DNA of 44,436 nt from Bacteroidales bacterium. Lineage in GTDB: Bacteria; Bacteroidota; Bacteroidia; Bacteroidales; UBA932. Both the position numbers and the translations under genes were made by a program. How positions within the stretch are numbered: the first letter of the stretch is position 1; the number at the start of each line of letters is the position of its first letter. The stretch lies in NCBI GenBank assembly GCA_017439305.1, contig JAFSJK010000015.1:1-44436 (forward strand), in the 5' to 3' direction. A model generated the notes under the pieces. It was not told where the DNA came from. It saw only the letters and a list, made by a program, of their open reading frames with translations, and ran no database searches. Positions 3,486 to 13,718 of the stretch are shown piece by piece.

Positions 3486-3556
3486 GTACAAACGAGACTT
3501 GTACATCACGGCATTGACTCCGGCCTTTTTCTTTTCGTCAAATTGACCTATCTTTA
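3486..3556 (+). promoter_or_regulatory. Repeated promoter module P2 with palindrome
   Basis: The dyad GTACAAA-CGAGA-CTTGTAC at 3486-3504 is followed 44 nt later by TATCTTTA at 3549-3556. Sequence and spacing match module P1 at 507-576. The 5-nt centre of the dyad is the reverse complement of that in P1, as expected if a symmetric protein binds the arms. The module precedes the 35-codon gene at 3588 and probably the downstream lipoprotein and radical SAM genes. Confidence 0.55.
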
Positions 3557-3587
3557 CACCGATAACCCCTTGCTATCCATAAATCAG

Positions 3588-3695
3588 ATGATTACCGTCA
3601 AGCACTTCATGTTGATCTCCATCTCCTCTTTAGCCATGGCCTGCACTCCCAAGGAGCCCGTAAAGTATCTCGCTTTAGCCCTGGAGGCCCTATAA
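3588..3695 (+). CDS. 35-residue lipopeptide
   Basis: The short frame begins MITVKHFMLISISSLAMAC. It is a compact lipoprotein signal peptide with a lipobox (AMAC, C19) followed by only 16 residues, TPKEPVKYLALALEAL, before TAA. A -7 box lies 31 nt upstream of the ATG, the right distance for a short leader. It precedes the lipoprotein at 3779 and the radical SAM gene at 4323 and may share their promoter. It could be a genuine small lipopeptide, a peptide substrate of the radical SAM enzyme, or the truncated front of a decayed lipoprotein gene. The mature peptide contains no Cys other than the lipidation site. No function can be assigned. Confidence 0.45.
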   Translation: MITVKHFMLISISSLAMACTPKEPVKYLALALEAL

Positions 3696-3733
3696 ACCTG
3701 TTGTCTTTTTTATTGCGTCCGGGATGCAAGATT

Positions 3734-3762
3734 CGTCCGTTTTGCCGTTTAATGAACGGACG
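3734..3762 (+). repeat. Inverted repeat before the lipoprotein gene
   Basis: CGTCCGTT at 3734-3741 and AACGGACG at 3755-3762 are perfectly complementary and could form an 8-bp hairpin with a 13-nt loop, ending 16 nt before the ATG at 3779. No T-run follows, so it looks more like an mRNA-leader or operator structure than a terminator. Confidence 0.5.
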
Positions 3763-3778
3763 TTCATGAAAGAGCCGT

Positions 3779-4333
3779 ATGAAAACCAAGTATTATCTCA
3801 TCTATGTCTTCGTTGGAATCGCCTTTCTGGCGGTTTCTGCGTGGGTGTTTCTCTCGCGCGGGAAGAACGCGAAAGCCATCCGGGCCAAGTACAAGCTGGG
3901 CGGGATCATGCTCATGTGCATGGCCATGCTGTCCGTCGCTTCCTGCGGCGAGATCCTCAATCCGGGTGAAGTGATGTGCTACGATCCGGTGTTGGATTAC
4001 TCTTTTACGGTCACCACGGGAAAACACGATGCGGATTGGCAGTATATCCTGTCACCGGGGGCTGTCCTGACGGTGCAGGTCGAATGTCGCCGTTACGAGA
4101 AATACGGGATCGTCATCCGCCAGTTCGAAGACATGAAGGAAGGGGACGTCCTCCAGACCGCCACCTTCGAATCTGAGGGAAAAAACCCGTTCCAGTACGA
4201 ACTGTTGTATGATCCGGCCGATAAAGCCTATGCAGGGATCGCCCTGGTGGACATTTATGGATATCCCGAAGGAAAAGAAGACGGGAGTCTGCTCTACTCC
4301 ACTATCTTGCTCGTTACGACCAGTGCAGATTGA
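3779..4333 (+). CDS. rSAM-associated-type lipoprotein with an extra N-terminal membrane segment
   Basis: 184 residues. A first hydrophobic segment spans about 6-25. After a basic linker (RGKNAKAIRAKYK) comes a second hydrophobic stretch that ends in the lipobox VASC at C56. The mature region starts GEILNPGEVMCYDPVLDYSF, which resembles the motif MYGxPxADYxV of the Bacteroidota radical SAM-associated lipoproteins (rSAM/lipoprotein system, TIGR04133/TIGR04134 as I recall them). The stop overlaps the probable GTG start of the radical SAM gene by 11 nt, so the pair is likely translationally coupled. The function of such lipoproteins is unproven; modification by the enzyme has been proposed. The oddity here is the additional N-terminal segment of about 36 residues, which would leave the lipobox inside the chain unless translation also starts internally near 3908. 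Confidence 0.68.
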   Translation: MKTKYYLIYVFVGIAFLAVSAWVFLSRGKNAKAIRAKYKLGGIMLMCMAMLSVASCGEILNPGEVMCYDPVLDYSFTVTTGKHDADWQYILSPGAVLTVQVECRRYEKYGIVIRQFEDMKEGDVLQTATFESEGKNPFQYELLYDPADKAYAGIALVDIYGYPEGKEDGSLLYSTILLVTTSAD

Positions 4334-5324
4334 CCATCTTGTCTACGAATTGACCGGGGCCTGCAATCAATGTTGCAGGTTTTGTTATAACTATTGGCGT
4401 GACGGCAATATGCCTATTGCGCCACCGGACCCGTCCGCTGCCCGGAAAACCCTGAAAAAGCTGCTTTCGCAGGCCTCTGTGGGCAGTCTTTCCTTCTCCG
4501 GAGGCGAACCGATGCTGCTCTCCAATGTCCATGGCCTGGTTCTTTATGCGAGATTCAAGGGCTGTAAAGTGAACATTCTCACCAACGGGACCCTCCTGAC
4601 CGACGATGCCCTTGAGAACTTCCTGAGCCTGGGCGTCCGTATCATCCAGATTCCGCTCCTCAGTGCCGACGCGGCCATCCATGATTACCTCACCGGCCTT
4701 CCCGGTTCCTGGGAGAAGGCGGTCGATGCGCTGCGCCGGACAGGCCATGCGGGCATTGGCGCCGCCGTGCTGGTCATCACTAAGGTCAATGCTTCCGGTA
4801 TTGCGGAAACGCTCTCACTCATGGCGGAATGCGGTATCCGGACGGTGATGGTGAACCGGTTCAACATCGGTGGAAACGGAATCAGGCATGCCCGGGAACT
4901 GGTTCCGGACCGGAAGACGCTGCAGGATGCCTTCACGGCTGTCGAGACATTCGCTATGGGGAATCCGGCCATGCGATTCGTAAGCGGCGTTTGCACGCCC
5001 CTGTGCTATCTGGACACCACGCCCTATCCCCATATCCGTTTCACCCGATGCAGTACCGATCTCACAGGCCGGCCGGTCACGGTGAACCATAACGGAGACG
5101 TCCGCTTCTGCAACCATTCTCCCAGGGTGCTGGGAAACATCCATGCACGGCCGATCGGGGATATCCTGACAGATCCTGAAATCAATGCCCGGTATGCCGG
5201 GGTACCGAAGGAGTGCGGAACATGCGCCCTGCTCCAACGATGCGGCGGCGGATGCAGGGCCGCTTCCGAGCAGGTCCACGGCACTTTTTCCGCCCTCGAC
5301 CCCATCCTGGATTACGGGAATTAG
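4323..5324 (+). CDS. Radical SAM/SPASM domain protein
   Basis: 333 residues if started at the GTG at 4323, which directly precedes the conserved first strand (QIDHLVYELTGAC). In-frame ATGs at 4209-4257 would lie deep inside the upstream gene and add an unconserved tail. The radical SAM cluster motif is C14-x3-C18-x2-C21, followed by FSGGEP, which helps to bind S-adenosylmethionine. The C-terminal SPASM region has a Cys before the strand VTVNHNGDVRFCNHSP, then CGTCALLQRCGGGC, enough ligands for auxiliary iron-sulfur clusters. Such enzymes usually modify peptides or proteins. The adjoining overlapping lipoprotein gene is the obvious partner; the 35-residue lipopeptide is another candidate substrate. 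The reaction cannot be told from sequence. Confidence 0.88.
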   Translation: MQIDHLVYELTGACNQCCRFCYNYWRDGNMPIAPPDPSAARKTLKKLLSQASVGSLSFSGGEPMLLSNVHGLVLYARFKGCKVNILTNGTLLTDDALENFLSLGVRIIQIPLLSADAAIHDYLTGLPGSWEKAVDALRRTGHAGIGAAVLVITKVNASGIAETLSLMAECGIRTVMVNRFNIGGNGIRHARELVPDRKTLQDAFTAVETFAMGNPAMRFVSGVCTPLCYLDTTPYPHIRFTRCSTDLTGRPVTVNHNGDVRFCNHSPRVLGNIHARPIGDILTDPEINARYAGVPKECGTCALLQRCGGGCRAASEQVHGTFSALDPILDYGN

Positions 5325-5419
5325 ACCTTTACAAAAACCAGCCGTATTTGAGCGGTCATGACAAGGGTTCGACGATAATAACGGTCCAATTCATAGCCTG
5401 TGTGAAGTTACATTTATTT

Positions 5420-5447
5420 TTCTTTTCAGCCAATTGACTTATATTTA
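5420..5447 (+). promoter_or_regulatory. Repeated promoter module P3
   Basis: This copy carries the core CAATTGACTTATATTTACA with a -7 box TATATTTA at 5440-5447, nearly identical to the downstream half of P1 (541-590). The GTACAA dyad found in P1 and P2 is missing here. It lies 46 nt before the ATG at 5494. Confidence 0.5.
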
Positions 5448-5493
5448 CACCGATGAATCGGAATTATCGGAGACACAGAACTGTTTTATTCCA

Positions 5494-5790
5494 ATGAAAA
5501 TCAGAATCACGGCCGTCAGGAAGGCTTCGTATCCGGATTTGATGGCGAAATATGAGAACCCGATCGAACACACTTGCGATGTGCTGGAGGGGCAGGAGTG
5601 GATTTCCGTCGATGGAAAATGTCCGGAAGGGATGTGCCCTTCGGCCTGGGGCTCCATGCGGGAATTCGTCGAGGCGCTGGCCCGTGGTGAGGGAAACTTC
5701 TTTGACGGATGGATGAAGAATCCCCTGAGCGCCATGATCAGCTGTAACGACGGCTTCAGACCGGTGAGCTTCTACATTGAAGTGATCTGA
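5494..5790 (+). CDS. TIGR04076-like small cysteine-containing protein
   Basis: 98 residues from the ATG at 5494, with no signal peptide. It carries four cysteines: C28, C43, C48 and C84. The central CPEGMCPSAWGSM and the C-terminal ISCNDGFRPVSFYIEVI match the pattern of the small TIGR04076 family as I remember it (a core with C-x4-C-P/L-x-A followed by a basic or acidic helix, then a Cys before a final strand with FxIE). The four cysteines could bind a metal, but the family has no established function. The gene has its own copy of the repeated promoter and follows the radical SAM gene by 169 nt, so shared regulation is more likely than a shared transcript. Confidence 0.7.
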   Translation: MKIRITAVRKASYPDLMAKYENPIEHTCDVLEGQEWISVDGKCPEGMCPSAWGSMREFVEALARGEGNFFDGWMKNPLSAMISCNDGFRPVSFYIEVI

Positions 5791-5861
5791 AGCGATGGCT
5801 CTCCGCCCTGTCAGAGGGAAAATCCCAGTCTTTATTGAACGGGGGGCCTAAAAGGCGTATT

Positions 5862-6347
5862 TCATCGCGAAGCGAACTCCTCGAAGGGCTTCAGGCCGCC
5901 GGCACCGGAGCCGTACCCGAAGGGGCCGCCCAGACCCAGCGCCGTGATCACATGGGGGTCGAAATAGTCGTAGGTGTATTCGGAGATATTTTCTCCCTGG
6001 ATCACCTGCATTTCGAGGTGGTCGCCCAAGTCGGTGTCGATGGTGATGTCCGCAGAGCGCGGCTCGCTCCCGCTCGCAATGTCGTACCCGTCGTATTCCA
6101 GCAGCAGCACCTTCCTCTGTCCCGTCTTCGCAGCGAGCGCCTGTTCCGTCATCCCTTCTTTCAATGCGCCCAGGTCCAGCGTATCCAGGTCGATGACCCG
6201 GCCGCCATCCGAAAGCTTCAGCCAGGAGGCGTCGCTCCGGATGGTAACCTTGGCCTGCGGAACCAGTTCGCAGAAAACGATTTCTTCCTGCCCCTGCCCG
6301 TTGAGTACCAGGTGGACATAATCGGTTTTCGTTACCGGCTGGTGCGT
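5862..6347 (-). pseudogene. Exported-protein-like frame without a start
   Basis: A good coding frame is open from 6347 to the TGA at 5862-5864. It reads VHLVLNGQGQEEIVFCELV, then a strand-rich middle and a Gly-rich end (GLGGPFGYGSGAGGLKPFEE). An in-frame TGA lies directly upstream at 6350-6348 and there is no early ATG, GTG or TTG. The first ATG in frame is at 6164 and would discard the first third. An ATG at 6351 lies one frame off, so a frameshift near the start, or loss of a signal peptide, is likely. Not recognised. It precedes nothing obvious and is separated from the GH3 gene by 139 nt; 6352-6486 shows no feature that I can support. Confidence 0.45.
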
Positions 6348-6486
6348 TCATGTGTGACGTGGTTATTCTGTTAACGGAGAATGTATTCCTTCCGGATACA
6401 AAATTAACAAAAAAACGCCTGTTGTCGTCACTTGTCCCATGAAAAGAGGAATCAGACCCCGAGCCTTTTCCCTTTCGCCGATGGCA

Positions 6487-8754
6487 TTACAGAGTCAGAG
6501 TCACGCTCTGACGGATGTCCCGGGAACTGGCCGCGGCGGAGATGACATATTCGCCCTCGTCAAGTTTCCACGCCCGCTCATAGGCGTCGAACCAGCGCAA
6601 GTCCGCAAGTTTGACCGTCATCGAGAGCACCTCACTGGCCTTGGGCTTCAGCTCCGCGGTTTTCCCAAAGGCACGGAGTTCCTTCACGGGTTTCACAGCT
6701 ATTCCTTTCGGTGCGCCGACATAAACCTGCACGGCTTCGCGTCCGCTGCATTGGCCGGTATTCGTCACCCTCACGCTGATTTTCAGTTCATCGCCGCAGC
6801 GTTCGGCCTTCAAGTCGGAATACTCGAAAACCGTGTAGCTCAGGCCGAAGCCAAAAGGATACAGAATCGCCGCGGGATTGCGGTCAAAGTGGCGGTAGCC
6901 GACGAAAATGTCTTCATCATAGTTGACATCTCCGGGATTGCCGTTGGACATCGGGAAGTCTTTGGCGGAAGGATAATCCTCATAGCGCCTTGCAATGGTC
7001 ATCGGCAGCTTGCCCGAAGGGGAAACCTTGCCGCTGAGGACGTCGGCCACGCTGTTGCCGGCCTCCTGGCCGGCCATCCAGGTATGGAGGATTGCATCCG
7101 GCTTGTCGCACCATCCCATATCCACGATATTGCCCATATTCAGCAGGACAATCACTTTCTTGCCCGCCCGGTGGAAAGTCTCACAGAGCAGGTCAATGTT
7201 CGCTTGCTCGGTCTCCGAGAGATACCAGTCGCCCGGGGTCAGGATGCGGTCTCCGCCTTCACCCGCCATACGGCCGATACTGTAGATGCAGACATCATTG
7301 CGCTTTGCCGCCGCCTCTGCATCCTCCCGGCTGACAACCGTTTCCTGTACGGTAGGGATGATCCAGAAATACTCAGCCGGCTGCCTGGCCTTCTCCTGCT
7401 TCACATAGTTCCGATAGGATTCCGCAAGCTGCCTGTCCAGCCGGAAGCCGGCGGTCTCCAGTCCTTCATCAACAGTCACTTTGTAGGCGCGGTTCACATA
7501 ACCTGAACCGGAGCCTCCGACCATCGTGTCATAGGACGGAACTCCGAAGAGCGCCACTTTGCGTTTATTGCTTAGAGGCAGGACGCTTTCGTTCTTCAGC
7601 AGAACCATTCCCTGAGCGGCGGCCTCGCGCGTGATTTGGGCGTGTGCGGCGAGATCGGGTTTGTTACTGTATTGGTAGCGGTTGAAGGTGGGCGATGCCA
7701 CCATCACCTGAAGGATGCGCCGGACACAGTCATCCAGGAAACGGATGTCCAGACGGCCGCTCTGCACGGCGTCAAGGATGTCGTCATACTGGTGAGGCGT
7801 GCCGGGCATCAGCATATCATTGCCAGCGGCAATCTGGCGTGCACCGTTCTCTTCGGCCCACCAGTCGGTCATCACAAAGCCCTTGAAGCCCCATTCTCCG
7901 CGGAGAAGGTCCGTCAGAAGCCAGCGGTTCTCCGAAGAGAGCACGCCGTTGATCTTGTTGTAGGACGACATGATGGTCCAGGGCTGTGCCTCCTTCACCA
8001 CGATTTCAAAGCCCTTGAGATAGATTTCACGCAAGGCCCGCTCACTGATGGAGGCATTCTGTCCGTTGCGCAGGGTCTCCTGGCTGTTGGCGGCGAAGTG
8101 CTTCACGGAAGTGCCGACGCCGTTTCCCTGGATGCCCCTGACATAAGCGGCCGCAATCTTTCCCGCCAGCAAAGGGTCCTCGCTATAATACTCGAAGTTA
8201 CGTCCACACAGTGGGTTCCGGTGTATGTTCATGGCCGGTGCAAGGAGCACGTCGGCGCCATATTCCAGGACCTCATTTCCCATGGCTGCCGTTATGCGTT
8301 CCGTGAGTTCGGGATCCCACGATGCCGACAGAAGTGACCCGATGGGGAAGGCCGTGCAATAGTAGGTATTGTCATCTCCGGGGCGCGTGGCATCGATACG
8401 GAGGCCGGCAGGACCGTCGGCAAGAACCATCGTGGTGATTCCCAGTCTTTCCACAGGCACGACGTCGCCGGCGGCACCTTTCACGCGGCCGCTGGAGAAG
8501 GCGGTAACCCCGTCACTCTGGGGTTTTTCGAGGATGCCGCGCATGTCCACGGACCTGCGCACGGGCATTCCAGGCGCAGGTCCAGGACCGTTTTCATCTC
8601 CCACATAGCGGTTTGCTCCGACGACAAGGGTGATTTTTTCCTCGAGCGTCATCGCTTTCAATACTTCCTCGATATTGTTGCGGTCGAGCCGGGGAGCCTG
8701 CGAAAAGGCCGCCATCGTGCAAAGCAATGCACCGAATGTAAGGATGGCTTTCAT
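6487..8754 (-). CDS. Glycoside hydrolase family 3 (beta-glucosidase-like), exported
   Basis: 755 residues with a signal peptide (MKAILTFGALLCTMAAFSQA). The TIM-barrel domain shows GH3 landmarks: NIHRNPLCGRNFEYYSEDP, VKHFAANSQET, and GFVMTDWW, whose aspartate D297 is the expected catalytic nucleophile. An alpha/beta sandwich follows, with VALFGVPSYDTMVGGSGSG, and a C-terminal fibronectin III-like domain ends the protein (REAVQVYVGAPKG, VKELRAFGKT). Length and order are normal for GH3. The enzyme should hydrolyse terminal beta-linked sugars in the periplasm; beta-glucoside or beta-xyloside specificity cannot be decided. It is the last gene of the operon phosphatase-SusC-SusD-GH3, 3 nt after susD, and is the only glycosidase of this locus. 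Confidence 0.95.
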   Translation of the reverse strand: MKAILTFGALLCTMAAFSQAPRLDRNNIEEVLKAMTLEEKITLVVGANRYVGDENGPGPAPGMPVRRSVDMRGILEKPQSDGVTAFSSGRVKGAAGDVVPVERLGITTMVLADGPAGLRIDATRPGDDNTYYCTAFPIGSLLSASWDPELTERITAAMGNEVLEYGADVLLAPAMNIHRNPLCGRNFEYYSEDPLLAGKIAAAYVRGIQGNGVGTSVKHFAANSQETLRNGQNASISERALREIYLKGFEIVVKEAQPWTIMSSYNKINGVLSSENRWLLTDLLRGEWGFKGFVMTDWWAEENGARQIAAGNDMLMPGTPHQYDDILDAVQSGRLDIRFLDDCVRRILQVMVASPTFNRYQYSNKPDLAAHAQITREAAAQGMVLLKNESVLPLSNKRKVALFGVPSYDTMVGGSGSGYVNRAYKVTVDEGLETAGFRLDRQLAESYRNYVKQEKARQPAEYFWIIPTVQETVVSREDAEAAAKRNDVCIYSIGRMAGEGGDRILTPGDWYLSETEQANIDLLCETFHRAGKKVIVLLNMGNIVDMGWCDKPDAILHTWMAGQEAGNSVADVLSGKVSPSGKLPMTIARRYEDYPSAKDFPMSNGNPGDVNYDEDIFVGYRHFDRNPAAILYPFGFGLSYTVFEYSDLKAERCGDELKISVRVTNTGQCSGREAVQVYVGAPKGIAVKPVKELRAFGKTAELKPKASEVLSMTVKLADLRWFDAYERAWKLDEGEYVISAAASSRDIRQSVTLTL

Positions 8755-8757
8755 ATC

Positions 8758-10524
8758 TTATTCAATCCAGCCGGTATACTCGTCCGAGCCTTCATATCCC
8801 GGATTCTGCTTGAACTTGTACTCCTCGCCGGCACCGGCGGAAAGGTTGATCTGTTCGGTCGGAATGGGAGCGAAGCCCTTCGTTATCTCAAAACGCTGTC
8901 CGTAACCACCGTTGAAATCACTTGCGTGATTCGTGCTCTTGTTGCCCTTGAAGTAGCATTCAACGCCATCCTGCTTGTCCAAAGCGGCCTTGGCATAAGC
9001 CATTCCATATCGACGCAAGTCCCCGAGTCTGACGCCTTCAAAAGCGAGCTCCCAACGGCGTTCGTTCCGGAGGTTCTCTTCCGTAAGCGCGATGGCGGGC
9101 AGACCGGCGCGGGCGCGCACCTTGTCGAAGGATGCCTTGTTTCCATTGATCTCGGCATCCATCAGCAGGACTTCGGCAAAGCGGATGAGCACCATATCGT
9201 CGCAGAAATTGTACTGGTAGTCGTCCTTGGACCAGGAAAGGTTATTGTACATGACCAGCAGATAAGACCAGCGGATGGTTCCGTTGTTGTCTCTGCCCAT
9301 GACCGGCATGACCTTCGTCTGGTAGTAACCGGTTTCCTGGACGTTGTCACCTTTCACACCGTACTTATAGCCTTTCACAAAATCCTCGGGGTACATAATG
9401 GAAGCTTCGCGGCGCGGGTCATCCGGTTCGATGGTCTCCCATTCCTTGACAAAGGCGGGGCTGACAGGGCAGTTTCCGTATCCGTAGCTCAGCGGGAAGG
9501 TGTCTCCATTCTGGCATTTCTGCTTGTTGCCACGGACACCGCCGATGAAAAGAGCCGTCTGGTTGGAATATCTGCGGTAGGGATCGCCTTTGCTCAGGGC
9601 GTTGAACTTGATGACGAACATCGCTTCCGGATTGACTTTCCCGTCATCGCAGACATATCCGTAACCTTTGTCCTTCCACTTGGCCGGGCAGAGTTCGTCG
9701 GACATCGTGATGCGGTTGCTGTACGCCCACAGGTTGTGGAAATCAGGAACCAGGGAATACCCCGAATTCTCCACACAGTCCTTGATATATCCGCCTACAT
9801 CGGCCTTGGTCAGATCCGTTCCGTCAGGCAGGGTGACGACTTCGTCATTGTAGAATCCGGAATAGAACAGGTACACACGGCCGAGAAGGGCTTCCGCGCA
9901 GTATTTGTCCACGTGGCCGTCACCATCGGACCGCTTGGAGGGCATGATGCTGATGGCCGTTTTGAGGTCCAGCATGATCTGTCCCCAGAGCGCTTCTCCG
10001 GAAATCTGGGGAAGGGTGGGATCCGCCCCGGTGGTCAGGGGACAAGGCACGTTCCCGAACTGGCTTGCCAGCTCGTAGTAGTAATAGGCGCGCAGGAAAA
10101 GGACCTGGCCGGTGTAATCCTTCTTCACCTCATCGGAAATGAAAGTGCAGTTTTCGAGCACTTCCAGGGCGCTGTTCGCCCGGGCAATTCCCACGTAGCG
10201 CTGTTTATAGACGCCGTTGTATCCGTCGCCCTGCTTGAGCATCATGTCGGCCGCCTGGATGATGGAGACGTTTGCGCCGTCGCCGCCAAGGCACTCGTCG
10301 GCCGTCGCCAGGGCCCAGGGGTAGTGCCAGGTGACCTTGTTCGCTTCCTGGATGGCGTTCAGGTTGTTGTAGACACCGGTGACCATCTGCTCCACCTCTC
10401 CGGCATTCGAAGGGAAGTCGGCCGTGGTCTTGGTCATATAGTTGGTCGTATCGAGAAGGCTCTCACAGGAGGAAAGCAGAAACGTCAATGCGGCAGCCGC
10501 CGTTTTTTTCAATATCGTTTTCAT
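8758..10524 (-). CDS. SusD/RagB family outer-membrane lipoprotein
   Basis: 588 residues from the ATG at 10524; a GTG at 10533 is less likely. The signal peptide ends in LLSSC with the lipidated C20. The mature part shows SusD features: the N-terminal NNLNAIQEAN helix region, RANSALEVLENC, FLRAYYYYELASQFGNVP, and a late RNERRWELAFEGVRLGDLRRYG. SusD proteins sit on the cell surface over the SusC barrel and help to capture the glycan. The gene begins 14 nt after susC and ends 3 nt before the GH3 gene, so the three are certainly co-transcribed. Its ligand is not predictable; the presence of GH3 suggests a beta-linked oligosaccharide. Confidence 0.96.
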   Translation of the reverse strand: MKTILKKTAAAALTFLLSSCESLLDTTNYMTKTTADFPSNAGEVEQMVTGVYNNLNAIQEANKVTWHYPWALATADECLGGDGANVSIIQAADMMLKQGDGYNGVYKQRYVGIARANSALEVLENCTFISDEVKKDYTGQVLFLRAYYYYELASQFGNVPCPLTTGADPTLPQISGEALWGQIMLDLKTAISIMPSKRSDGDGHVDKYCAEALLGRVYLFYSGFYNDEVVTLPDGTDLTKADVGGYIKDCVENSGYSLVPDFHNLWAYSNRITMSDELCPAKWKDKGYGYVCDDGKVNPEAMFVIKFNALSKGDPYRRYSNQTALFIGGVRGNKQKCQNGDTFPLSYGYGNCPVSPAFVKEWETIEPDDPRREASIMYPEDFVKGYKYGVKGDNVQETGYYQTKVMPVMGRDNNGTIRWSYLLVMYNNLSWSKDDYQYNFCDDMVLIRFAEVLLMDAEINGNKASFDKVRARAGLPAIALTEENLRNERRWELAFEGVRLGDLRRYGMAYAKAALDKQDGVECYFKGNKSTNHASDFNGGYGQRFEITKGFAPIPTEQINLSAGAGEEYKFKQNPGYEGSDEYTGWIE

Positions 10525-10538
10525 ATCAGGCACTGTTT

Positions 10539-13500
10539 TTAGAATTTGATGTTAAGACCCACGAGCATGGTGCGGGGCTGGGGATAGAAACCAAGGTCGA
10601 TACCCTTGGCCCAGGAGTCGAATCCGCTGGAAGTTCCCACTTCCGGATCCATGCCCTTGTATCCCGTGACCGTGTACAGGTTCTGGCCCTGGACATAGAG
10701 ACGGAGCTGGCCGAACGGGGAGTTCTTCCACAGTCTGTTGAAATCGTATCCGAGCGTGACCGTCTGGAAACGGAAGAAATCGCCGTTCTCGATGAACATG
10801 TCGGTATTGAGGCCTTTGCTGTTGCTGGAATACAGGATGGGCAGCCGGTTGGATGTGCCCTCACCGTGCCAGTAGTCGAACACTTCAGTGGTATAGTTCT
10901 GATAGGGCCGGTGGCCGTATTGTCTCCAGGCACGGAAGATCTGGTGGCCGAACATGCCATATCCGCTGAGGCCGAAATCGAAGCCCTTGTAGTTGATGGA
11001 GAGGTTGAGACCTGCCGTGAAATGCGGGTTGGGATCGCCGGTCATGGTCTTGTCGTCATCCTGGTTGAGCGTACCGTCGTCATTGAGGTCGAGGACCTTG
11101 AGATCGCCGGGCTGGGGATTGTCGCTGATGGTCGGCTTGCCGGCCGCCAGCCAGGCGTCGAGTTCCTCCTGCGTCTGGAACACGCCGTCCGTGACATACG
11201 TATGGAAATAGCCGATCGGATAGCCCACCTCGGCGCGATACAGTTCGGCGGCCTGTTCGACGACGGCCCGGCCGTGGATGACGCCTTCGCCGTTCGCGAT
11301 ACGGGTGACGCGGTTCTTGTTGTATGCACCGTTCACGCCGATACTGTAGTAGAAATCCTTGTTCACCTGGTCGTTCCAGGTAAGGGCCAGTTCAACACCG
11401 GTGTTGCGCACGTCACCGCCATTGATATAAGGGGCGTCGGCGCCGTAGTGGCCCATGATCGGGGCCTTCACCAGCCAGTTCTTGGTATCCTTCTGATACC
11501 AGTCGAAGGTCAATCCCAGGCGGCTTGCGAAGAAACGGGCGTCCAGACCGAAGTCAAGCTGCTGCGAGGTCTCCCAGGTCACATCGGGATTGGCCAGCTT
11601 GTCGGCATAGGAGCCATTGCTGAGCTGGTCGGTAATGCCATGGGCGAAACCGTATCGGCCGTCATTCGGACCGACCTGGACGGTCGCGAGATACTGGAAG
11701 TTGTCGATGGCGCAGTTACCGTTCTGGCCCCAGCTTCCGCGGAACTTCAGGAAACTGAGCGTGTTGCGGAGTCCCGCCATCCAAGGCTCGTTGGTGATCA
11801 CCCAACCGGCGGAAACCGAGGGGAACGTACCCCAGCGGTGACCGGGAGCGAAATTGGAGGAACCATCACGGCGAAGGATGAAGGATACCATATATTTCTC
11901 GGCGTAGTCATAGTTGATACGTCCGAAGTATGAAAGCAGGCCGCTGTCACTCCAGGGGGAACCCGTGATCTTGCTTTCCGTGATGAGTCCTGTCATATTG
12001 CTCACATAGGCGTGGACAGGATCGTCGACCCATTTTCCATCTTCCCTGCCGGCGCCGACCGACTCGCCGTAGCCCGAGTGTTCGATGGACATACCGGCCA
12101 TCGCGTCGAAGTTGTGCTGGCCGAAATGGAACTTGTACGCGGCCGTATTTTCCCAAGACCAGCTCCAGCCGAGGCCGGCATCCTGGGATACCTTGTCCAC
12201 ATCGAGGAAGGTGGTGGAATTGGCCTGGTAGGTCATATCGTAGGAGCGCTTGCTACTGGCACTCGCCTTATAATTGTACTGGCTCCTGAGAATCAAGTCT
12301 TTGATGGGCTGGATGCGCAGGTTGGCGGACATGTTCAGCGCATAGTTGTTTCTCCAGTTGTTGCCCTGGCTCGTTCTCGAGATCACATACAGCGGATTCT
12401 TGGCGTCGCCGTCAAACTTGAAAATGCCGAAATCCGTATAGTCGTCCGCGGTCGTGTACTCGCCGTCAGCCCTCCGCATGGGGGCGAGCGGATTCGCCGT
12501 CAGCGCGTCGAACATGTTGTTGGAGTACTGGTTGCTGAGGTTGATGCCGCTCTTCCTGCTGTAGGAGAAGCTGACGTTTTCGCCGATCGTGATGATGTCG
12601 AGGTCGTTCTTCTTGAGCAGCACGTGGTCGGAGTTCAGCCGGACCGTCGCCCGCTTGTAGTTGGAGGCTGCGGGCTTGCCGAAGATACCTTCCTGGTCAG
12701 TGAAGCTGACACCCATCGAGAACTTGGACCGGTCCGTTCCGCCGGCGAGATTGATGGCGTGATTGGAAACCGGTGCATTGTCATTGTGGAACTCCCGGAT
12801 CCAATTGGTCCCGGTGAAGGAACCGTCCATGATGCTCTTGTAAAGTTCGGGACTGAGAACGGTCGGGAAATCAGTAGGAGTGAGCCCGTTGTTCTTCTCG
12901 GCGGTGTTGATCACCTCGATATACTGCTTCGCATCCAGCACCTGCGGAATGATGGGCGCGTTCTGCCACCCGACATAGCCATCGTAGCTGATCTGGATAT
13001 TGCCCTCCTTGCCCTGCTTGGTGGTCACCAGGATGACGCCGTTCGCAGCCCGGGCACCATAGATCGCCGCCGAGGCCGCATCCTTCAAGATATCGATGCT
13101 CTCGATGTCGGAAGGGTTGAGGGTGCTGATGTCGCCGCCGGCCACGCCGTCGATGACATAGAGCGGCTTGTAAGAGCCGATGGTGCCCATACCGCGGATG
13201 TTGACATTGAATCCGTCGCCGGGCTGACCGGTATTGGCGATGATGCTCACACCGGGCGTCGAAGACTGCAGCGCGCCCAGCGCACTGGTGCTGTTGAGCT
13301 TCACAATGTCATCACCCTTGACCTGGATGGTCGAACCGGTGACCAGCTTCTTTTTCTGGACGCCGTAGCCGACGACGACGACATCCTCGAGGAATTCCGA
13401 GCTGCTGCCGAGCACGACGTTGATGACACTGCTCCCGTTCACGGCCACTTCCTTTGTATCATAGCCGAGGGACGAGAATACCAGAATCGCATCCGCGGCC

Positions 13501-13718
13501 GTGACAAGCGTGAACCGGCCGTCCAGATCGGAAACCGTACCGTTGCTCGTTCCCTTTTCCTGGATACCGGCTCCGATCACCGGCTGGTTTGTCTCATCGA
13601 CAATACGGCCGCTCACGCTCAAAGACTGAGGTTGGGCGGATGAGCTGAGCATTGCACTGAAGACAAAAGCCAGCGAAACGCAACATCTCATCAAAACAGT
13701 TCTTGATAACAGTTTCAT
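10539..13718 (-). CDS. SusC/RagA family TonB-dependent receptor
   Basis: 1059 residues. A signal peptide of about 29 residues is followed by a carboxypeptidase-like domain typical of SusC (SVSGRIVDETNQPVIGAGIQ, SDLDGRFTL), the SusC motif VVVVGYG, a plug domain (IRGMGTIGSYKPLYVIDGV, IYGARAANGVILVTTKQGK) and a long beta-barrel ending in a C-terminal aromatic/hydrophobic strand (LVGLNIKF). It imports oligosaccharides across the outer membrane with energy from TonB/ExbB. It is preceded, 21 nt upstream, by the histidine phosphatase gene and followed by susD. The hybrid sensor-regulator on the other strand at 15113 is the obvious regulator. Confidence 0.97.
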   Translation of the reverse strand: MKLLSRTVLMRCCVSLAFVFSAMLSSSAQPQSLSVSGRIVDETNQPVIGAGIQEKGTSNGTVSDLDGRFTLVTAADAILVFSSLGYDTKEVAVNGSSVINVVLGSSSEFLEDVVVVGYGVQKKKLVTGSTIQVKGDDIVKLNSTSALGALQSSTPGVSIIANTGQPGDGFNVNIRGMGTIGSYKPLYVIDGVAGGDISTLNPSDIESIDILKDAASAAIYGARAANGVILVTTKQGKEGNIQISYDGYVGWQNAPIIPQVLDAKQYIEVINTAEKNNGLTPTDFPTVLSPELYKSIMDGSFTGTNWIREFHNDNAPVSNHAINLAGGTDRSKFSMGVSFTDQEGIFGKPAASNYKRATVRLNSDHVLLKKNDLDIITIGENVSFSYSRKSGINLSNQYSNNMFDALTANPLAPMRRADGEYTTADDYTDFGIFKFDGDAKNPLYVISRTSQGNNWRNNYALNMSANLRIQPIKDLILRSQYNYKASASSKRSYDMTYQANSTTFLDVDKVSQDAGLGWSWSWENTAAYKFHFGQHNFDAMAGMSIEHSGYGESVGAGREDGKWVDDPVHAYVSNMTGLITESKITGSPWSDSGLLSYFGRINYDYAEKYMVSFILRRDGSSNFAPGHRWGTFPSVSAGWVITNEPWMAGLRNTLSFLKFRGSWGQNGNCAIDNFQYLATVQVGPNDGRYGFAHGITDQLSNGSYADKLANPDVTWETSQQLDFGLDARFFASRLGLTFDWYQKDTKNWLVKAPIMGHYGADAPYINGGDVRNTGVELALTWNDQVNKDFYYSIGVNGAYNKNRVTRIANGEGVIHGRAVVEQAAELYRAEVGYPIGYFHTYVTDGVFQTQEELDAWLAAGKPTISDNPQPGDLKVLDLNDDGTLNQDDDKTMTGDPNPHFTAGLNLSINYKGFDFGLSGYGMFGHQIFRAWRQYGHRPYQNYTTEVFDYWHGEGTSNRLPILYSSNSKGLNTDMFIENGDFFRFQTVTLGYDFNRLWKNSPFGQLRLYVQGQNLYTVTGYKGMDPEVGTSSGFDSWAKGIDLGFYPQPRTMLVGLNIKF

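Follow-up and report, generated by a model that had tools for sequence, protein, structure and literature searches.

We analysed a 44,436-nucleotide stretch of DNA from a Bacteroidales bacterium (UBA932 lineage; GenBank assembly GCA_017439305.1, contig JAFSJK010000015.1), referred to as the window, which is one whole contig (C7) of a 2.99-Mb assembly with 90 contigs. Our subject is a pair of plus-strand genes that encode a lipoprotein (positions 3779..4333) and a radical SAM/SPASM enzyme (4323..5324). An earlier note on this DNA had described these two as part of a four-gene cassette with a lipopeptide gene upstream and a TIGR04076-like gene downstream, and all four frames exist where it had placed them. 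For comparison we used the best 80 of 243 relatives of the enzyme in a genome collection, which together with the window give 81 loci.

The lipoprotein has 184 amino acids and, judged from its homologues and an AlphaFold2 model, comprises a two-helix leader, a lipobox, a Cys-Tyr (CY) motif and an immunoglobulin (Ig)-like beta-sandwich cargo. The model (predicted local distance difference test (pLDDT) score 85.2) places helices at residues 2-25 and 31-58, followed by seven strands. Alignment of 72 lipoproteins delimits a leader of residues 1-56 (3779..3946), made of helix 1, a basic loop and a helix 2 that ends in the lipobox (VASC, Cys56), and then the motif MCYDP at residues 66-70 (3974..3988), in which Cys67-Tyr68 is the predicted modification site. 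Seven loci were dropped before this alignment, two because they were incomplete (L047, L109) and five because they were divergent or without an upstream partner (L104, L111, L114, L115, L117). No NCBIfam model matched the lipoprotein at E ≤ 10, and no Pfam model matched it above its cut-off.

The enzyme has 333 amino acids and was characterized from alignments with relatives, Pfam and an AlphaFold2 model (pLDDT 93.5). Its listed frame begins at 4209; alignment with relatives suggests a GTG start at 4323, which would give an 11-base overlap with the lipoprotein gene. A CX3CX2C motif (C14/C18/C21) and two domains scoring above Pfam cut-offs (Radical_SAM, PF04055, 72.4 bits versus 29.5; SPASM, PF13186, 25.3 versus 21.5) place it among radical SAM/SPASM proteins, and C224, C228, C243, C263, C298, C301, C307 and C311 are invariant in 34 relatives. 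The seven-Cys SPASM motif is given as CX9-15GX4C - CX2CX5CX3C - C in the excerpted text of PMC6231123; here C243-X14-G258-X4-C263 and C298/C301/C307/C311 are present, the final Cys is absent and the extra C224 and C228 lie upstream. The folds nearest to the enzyme model are SkfB, SuiB, anSME, ChlB and CteB, and among NCBIfam models it scores highest against GeoRSP (90 bits), AhbD (89) and NirJ2 (86), all far under the cut-offs.

The pairing of the two genes is conserved, which bears out the earlier suggestion that a radical SAM/SPASM enzyme forms a pair with a lipoprotein and may modify it. Using a hidden Markov model, we found a leader protein near the enzyme in 75/81 loci, with the two-helix leader, usually a lipobox and then Cys-Tyr. 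A lipoprotein homologue lies directly upstream of the enzyme in all 12 other loci of the same genus, the frames overlapping or standing a few bases apart; 11 of these 12 lie on contigs already represented among the 80, and the two sets are not independent. Among the 75, L114 and L115 have the partner downstream of the enzyme. Of the other six loci, L104 and L117 encode CY proteins with divergent leaders, L109 a CY protein whose leader is cut by the contig end and L111 a Cys-His (CH) form; L073 and L110 have only 135 and 7 bases upstream, at contig edges. Neighbour clustering placed the enzyme in all 81 loci and the lipoprotein in 75; the next families, shadow frames aside, reach at most 13 loci (other clusters found in more than 13 overlie these two genes in a different frame or on the opposite strand). 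More distant loci include records titled Spirochaetales (L114), Kapaibacterium (L115) and Deltaproteobacteria (L117).

The enzyme was present in 15 of 101 related genomes (E ≤ 1e-30) and in 21 of the 393 genomes in a sample of the order (E ≤ 1e-50); the per-genome searches scored only top candidates, 5 for the enzyme and, in most genomes, 14 for the leader. A model of leader plus motif (E ≤ 1e-6) found 14 of the 393 order genomes, all 14 within the 21 enzyme carriers (hypergeometric P = 6e-21, uncorrected for phylogeny and with the E threshold chosen after the list had been seen). Several order-scan loci (G085, G092, G189, G315, G366 and G447) are contigs that also occur among the 80. Seven enzyme genomes gave no strong leader match: four of them (G124, G155, G255, G279) encode CY proteins whose leaders diverge, G366 encodes the CH form, and the enzyme stands at a contig end in G189 and G360. 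In a sample of 395 genomes of the phylum, three match the enzyme, window included: G612 has a CY lipoprotein, and the G488 match has none within its 1.5-kb flanks and adjoins another radical SAM enzyme, so that it probably belongs to another family.

Conservation within the lipoprotein is uneven. M1, F16, K37, G41, C67 and Y68 are invariant in the 72 aligned sequences, and the leader is better kept than the cargo, with a mean top-residue frequency of 0.63 in the leader, 0.81 in the motif and 0.38 in the cargo. The motif reads [TMS]CY[DE]P and occurs soon after the lipobox in one or two copies. Across 99 copies CY is preceded by T (44), M (25), S (22), E (5), Q (2) or G (1) and followed by D (73), E (23), A (2) or K (1), with P (70), V (19) or others (10) at the second position after it; this tally omits L050 and L080, both of which have the motif in the 72-sequence alignment. 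A leader-only model, from which CY was left out, found 97 distinct proteins after removal of duplicates, and CY lay within 45 amino acids in 97/97, compared with 1/39 among other lipobox open reading frames. In L070 and L104 the lipobox Cys is missing, yet CY is retained.

The cargo varies and is swapped, from Ig-like to TonB_C to almost none (L156). L088 and L097 have a common leader (nonsynonymous distance, dN, 0.008) and different cargo (dN 0.89), and L097 and L105 have the same cargo. CY-motif leaders are fused to a TonB C-terminal domain in L155 (3178-4963), L151 (3770-4336) and L152 (4391-5089), and in L149, L148 and L145 a single enzyme stands beside two to four leader proteins in an array. 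A run of leader-like proteins of 75-98 amino acids with varied CY motifs occupies 4285-5483 of L147, the G207 enzyme being on a different contig, and L156 (2903-4059; G366, the same place as L111) has five tandem leader peptides of 75-81 amino acids in which CH replaces CY, beside the same enzyme family. Across 71 loci, in a comparison limited to leader versus cargo, enzyme distance correlates with leader distance at r = 0.86 and with cargo distance at r = 0.66.

Radical SAM enzymes are cytoplasmic, so this one would act before export. We infer the following order of events: the lipoprotein would be the substrate of the overlapping enzyme, which would recognize the conserved N-terminal leader of the still-cytoplasmic chain and carry out a radical modification at the Cys-Tyr site, about ten residues beyond the lipobox; export, lipidation and lipobox cleavage would then remove the leader, and the variable cargo domain would keep the modified site beside its lipid anchor. 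Leader-guided modification at CY is proposed because the leader is conserved and tracks the enzyme more closely than the cargo does, and because CY is near-invariant; the nearest folds and sequences of the enzyme, which are peptide-modifying enzymes, favour it as well. Tyr is replaced by His in some proteins while Cys stays, which suggests that both side chains may take part, and the chemistry would most likely be a cross-link that loses two hydrogens and involves the sulphur of Cys or the ring of Tyr. On these comparisons of sequence we lean towards the enzyme modifying the lipoprotein at or next to CY. A wider reading, possible though somewhat doubtful, is a lipoprotein pathway resembling those of ribosomally synthesized and post-translationally modified peptides (RiPPs), in which a signal peptide with an extra membrane helix would serve as leader, lipobox cleavage would serve as leader removal and one enzyme would install the same Cys-Tyr or Cys-His modification close to the lipid anchor of swappable envelope proteins, including TonB C-terminal proteins.

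Several points weigh against modification at CY. The count of 97 proteins is partly circular, as up to 42 of them trained the model, and it takes no account of relatedness. Seven genomes gave weaker matches to leader plus motif (E 0.001 to 0.005; 18 to 21 bits) and only G366 among them has the enzyme; the other six were taken as chance matches. The cargo distances average 0.80 and are close to saturation, which by itself lowers the correlation of cargo with enzyme. The CH of the G366 array means that Tyr is not strictly needed, and the variable residue after CY (D, E, A or K) means that no cross-link partner is fixed. The enzyme is without a fused recognition domain: with 333 amino acids and a radical SAM motif that starts at residue 14, it has no fused N-terminal RiPP recognition element (RRE). 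Finally, the AlphaFold2 models were made of each protein alone, so they show no complex.

Alternatively, the enzyme may modify the lipoprotein elsewhere, in the leader, the lipid anchor region or the cargo, with CY acting as a recognition element or as a docking ligand for an auxiliary Fe-S cluster. There is a precedent in CteB, whose Aux I cluster was seen to hold a substrate Cys that takes no part in the thioether (PMC6231123, excerpted text), and CY is retained though nearby residues vary. We nevertheless consider this explanation unlikely: docking alone leaves the Tyr kept beside the Cys unexplained, and the wholesale replacement of cargo (TonB_C in L151, L152 and L155; almost none in L156) makes the cargo an unlikely target. 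A somewhat less likely alternative is that the enzyme acts on another substrate and the lipoprotein serves it as a partner, whether for electron donation, membrane anchoring or sensing. This would agree with the enzyme scoring about equally, and far under cut-off, against small-molecule (AhbD, NirJ2) and peptide (PqqE) models, but the arrays of leader proteins (two to four per enzyme), the G207 leader-like set on another contig and the swapping of cargo fit many substrates rather than one subunit.

The system differs from characterized maturases in several respects. SkfB, CteB and SuiB have an N-terminal RRE domain (PMC6231123, excerpted text), which the enzyme here lacks. Compared with these three and PqqE, which are RiPP maturases of the radical SAM/SPASM or Twitch type, it has no final Cys in the seven-Cys SPASM motif, and its presumed substrate is a full-length lipoprotein rather than a small peptide. 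Compared with the anaerobic sulfatase-maturating enzyme anSME, the substrate motif is different and no sulfatase was seen in the unit.

The earlier note had likened the pair to the TIGR04133 enzyme and the putative TIGR04134 lipoprotein, which NCBIfam lists as hypothetical equivalogs. The likeness holds for layout, a radical SAM/SPASM enzyme beside one or more lipoproteins, and fails for membership. The enzyme scores 41.5 bits against TIGR04133 over positions 22-196 (cut-off 425), below its scores against the GeoRSP, AhbD and NirJ2 models, and its Alistipes relative in L091 scores 55.2 bits. The lipoprotein has no match to TIGR04134 (cut-off 39.8 bits) at E ≤ 10 and, unlike that family, has a two-helix leader and a CY motif. 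TIGR04134 proteins have MYGxP or EYGxP near the lipid anchor, a Tyr motif shortly past the lipobox that is comparable with CYDP here. The same genome has two further loci that exceed the TIGR04133 cut-off (564 and 457 bits), and TIGR04134 was found in the genome only on contig C14 (E ≤ 0.001), beside the 564-bit enzyme. At that locus (L034, G000:C14; about 5776-6639 of the reverse complement) a short lipoprotein with LMYGVP lies directly upstream of the TIGR04134 lipoprotein with CMYGQP. The 457-bit enzyme (L035, G000:C33) stands without a TIGR04134 lipoprotein recognized at E ≤ 0.001.

The two systems also occur together. A motif scan placed a TIGR04133-type enzyme downstream in the same cluster in 14/80 loci, all titled Alistipes sp., and the two of these that were scored gave 573 and 570 bits. 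A TIGR04134-like family recurs in 13 loci by neighbour clustering; three of the four TIGR04134-like lipoproteins of L085, L091 and L093 are over the cut-off, and the fourth has 36.1 bits versus 39.8. In L105, where a TIGR04133-type enzyme lies in the cluster, a 60-amino-acid lipopeptide with MYGCP and an acidic tail is encoded about 320 bp upstream of the lipoprotein. In the order sample TIGR04133 was found at E ≤ 1e-100 in 92 of 393 genomes (86 over cut-off) and in 13 of the 21 genomes with the new enzyme (10 over cut-off), where 4.9 were expected (P = 1e-4, uncorrected for phylogeny). The new pair is an unmodelled system parallel to TIGR04133/TIGR04134, and the two look like parallel solutions on neighbouring lipoproteins. 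We consider it highly improbable that the cassette is instead a TIGR04133/TIGR04134 system with a lipopeptide and a TIGR04076 protein as added parts; the common layout, the 14/80 clustered enzymes and the short lipoprotein upstream at this genome's own TIGR04134 locus would fit, but the family cut-offs refute membership (41.5 bits versus 425, and no TIGR04134 match), the lipopeptide is not conserved and the TIGR04076 gene co-occurs at chance level.

The two outer genes had been proposed as parts of the system and as what might be new, which the note's own test of conserved association does not support. The 35-codon frame with a lipobox (3588..3695, plus strand) matches no family, and its best hits among 16 loci (E 0.31) and among the 80 loci (E 0.53) are not credible homologues. 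Small lipobox-like frames occur upstream in 8/75 loci, window included, versus 74/1500 Markov controls, and those of the other loci are mostly unrelated. The gene at 5494..5790 (plus strand) encodes a TIGR04076 family protein of 98 amino acids (75 bits versus a cut-off of 33), which is probably an unrelated neighbour. TIGR04076 is found in 17 of the 101 related genomes and with the enzyme in 3, where 17 and 15 carriers would be expected to give 2.5; in two of these three (G004, G023) the genes are on different contigs. A homologue within about 1.3 kb of the enzyme was found in 3/80 loci (L057, L060, L070) by tblastn with the window protein, a search that divergent members may escape. Such proximity is hardly expected from random placement and leans toward partnership; a transposase-like gene lies between the two in L057 and L060 (Y1_Tnp tested for L057 only), and we took the proximity as probably local synteny.

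A promoter-like module common to the first and last genes, as the earlier note had described, is indeed present on the plus strand at 3540..3563, upstream of the lipopeptide, lipoprotein and enzyme genes, and, with three mismatches, at 5431..5454, upstream of the TIGR04076 gene. These are the only two sites in the genome within three mismatches, and a reversed control pattern gave none. A 25-base version has at least 9 mismatches upstream of the relatives' lipoprotein genes (two at 9; best of shuffled controls 10) and at least 10 upstream of 13 other TIGR04076 genes; with only such poor matches, it looks private to the window contig. The repeated module, and the proximity of TIGR04076 to the enzyme in 3/80 loci, could point to the lipopeptide or the TIGR04076 protein as a lineage-specific extra part co-regulated with the pair, which we judge improbable given the lack of the module upstream of relatives and the separate contigs in G004 and G023. 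Gene neighbourhoods indicate that the cassette is a two-gene unit of enzyme and lipoprotein, without the lipopeptide and TIGR04076 genes as conserved partners, and the novelty lies in the lipoprotein's conserved leader and CY motif.

As far as our searches go, this family, its motif and its modular leader are undescribed, and the kind of system, radical SAM with lipoprotein, is known. In the open-access literature searched, no title or abstract start concerned this enzyme/lipoprotein system, 'radical SAM-associated' together with 'lipoprotein' was not found, and TIGR04133 and TIGR04134 were not mentioned, an absence that the open-access scope makes weak; the excerpted text of PMC10352776 does not contain the word 'lipoprotein'. 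The TIGR04133/TIGR04134 pair has a name and, in that literature, no explanation. The second, separate pair is a minimal two-gene unit whose candidate target is short and sharply defined, and its natural variants (CH in place of CY, loss of the lipobox, TonB_C as cargo) make modification testable by mass spectrometry. If confirmed, a radical-made residue would be added to cell-envelope lipoproteins of gut Bacteroidales.

Elsewhere in the window, a search for tRNA genes found none. Positions 315-433 (119 bp) are 79% identical to the beginning of L038 (the nearest relative among the best 80 of 243), in a part upstream of the L038 lipoprotein. On the minus strand, 6487-13718 contains glycoside hydrolase family 3-, SusD-like and SusC-like genes, recognized by eye from their translations, and is probably a glycan-use locus beside the cassette.

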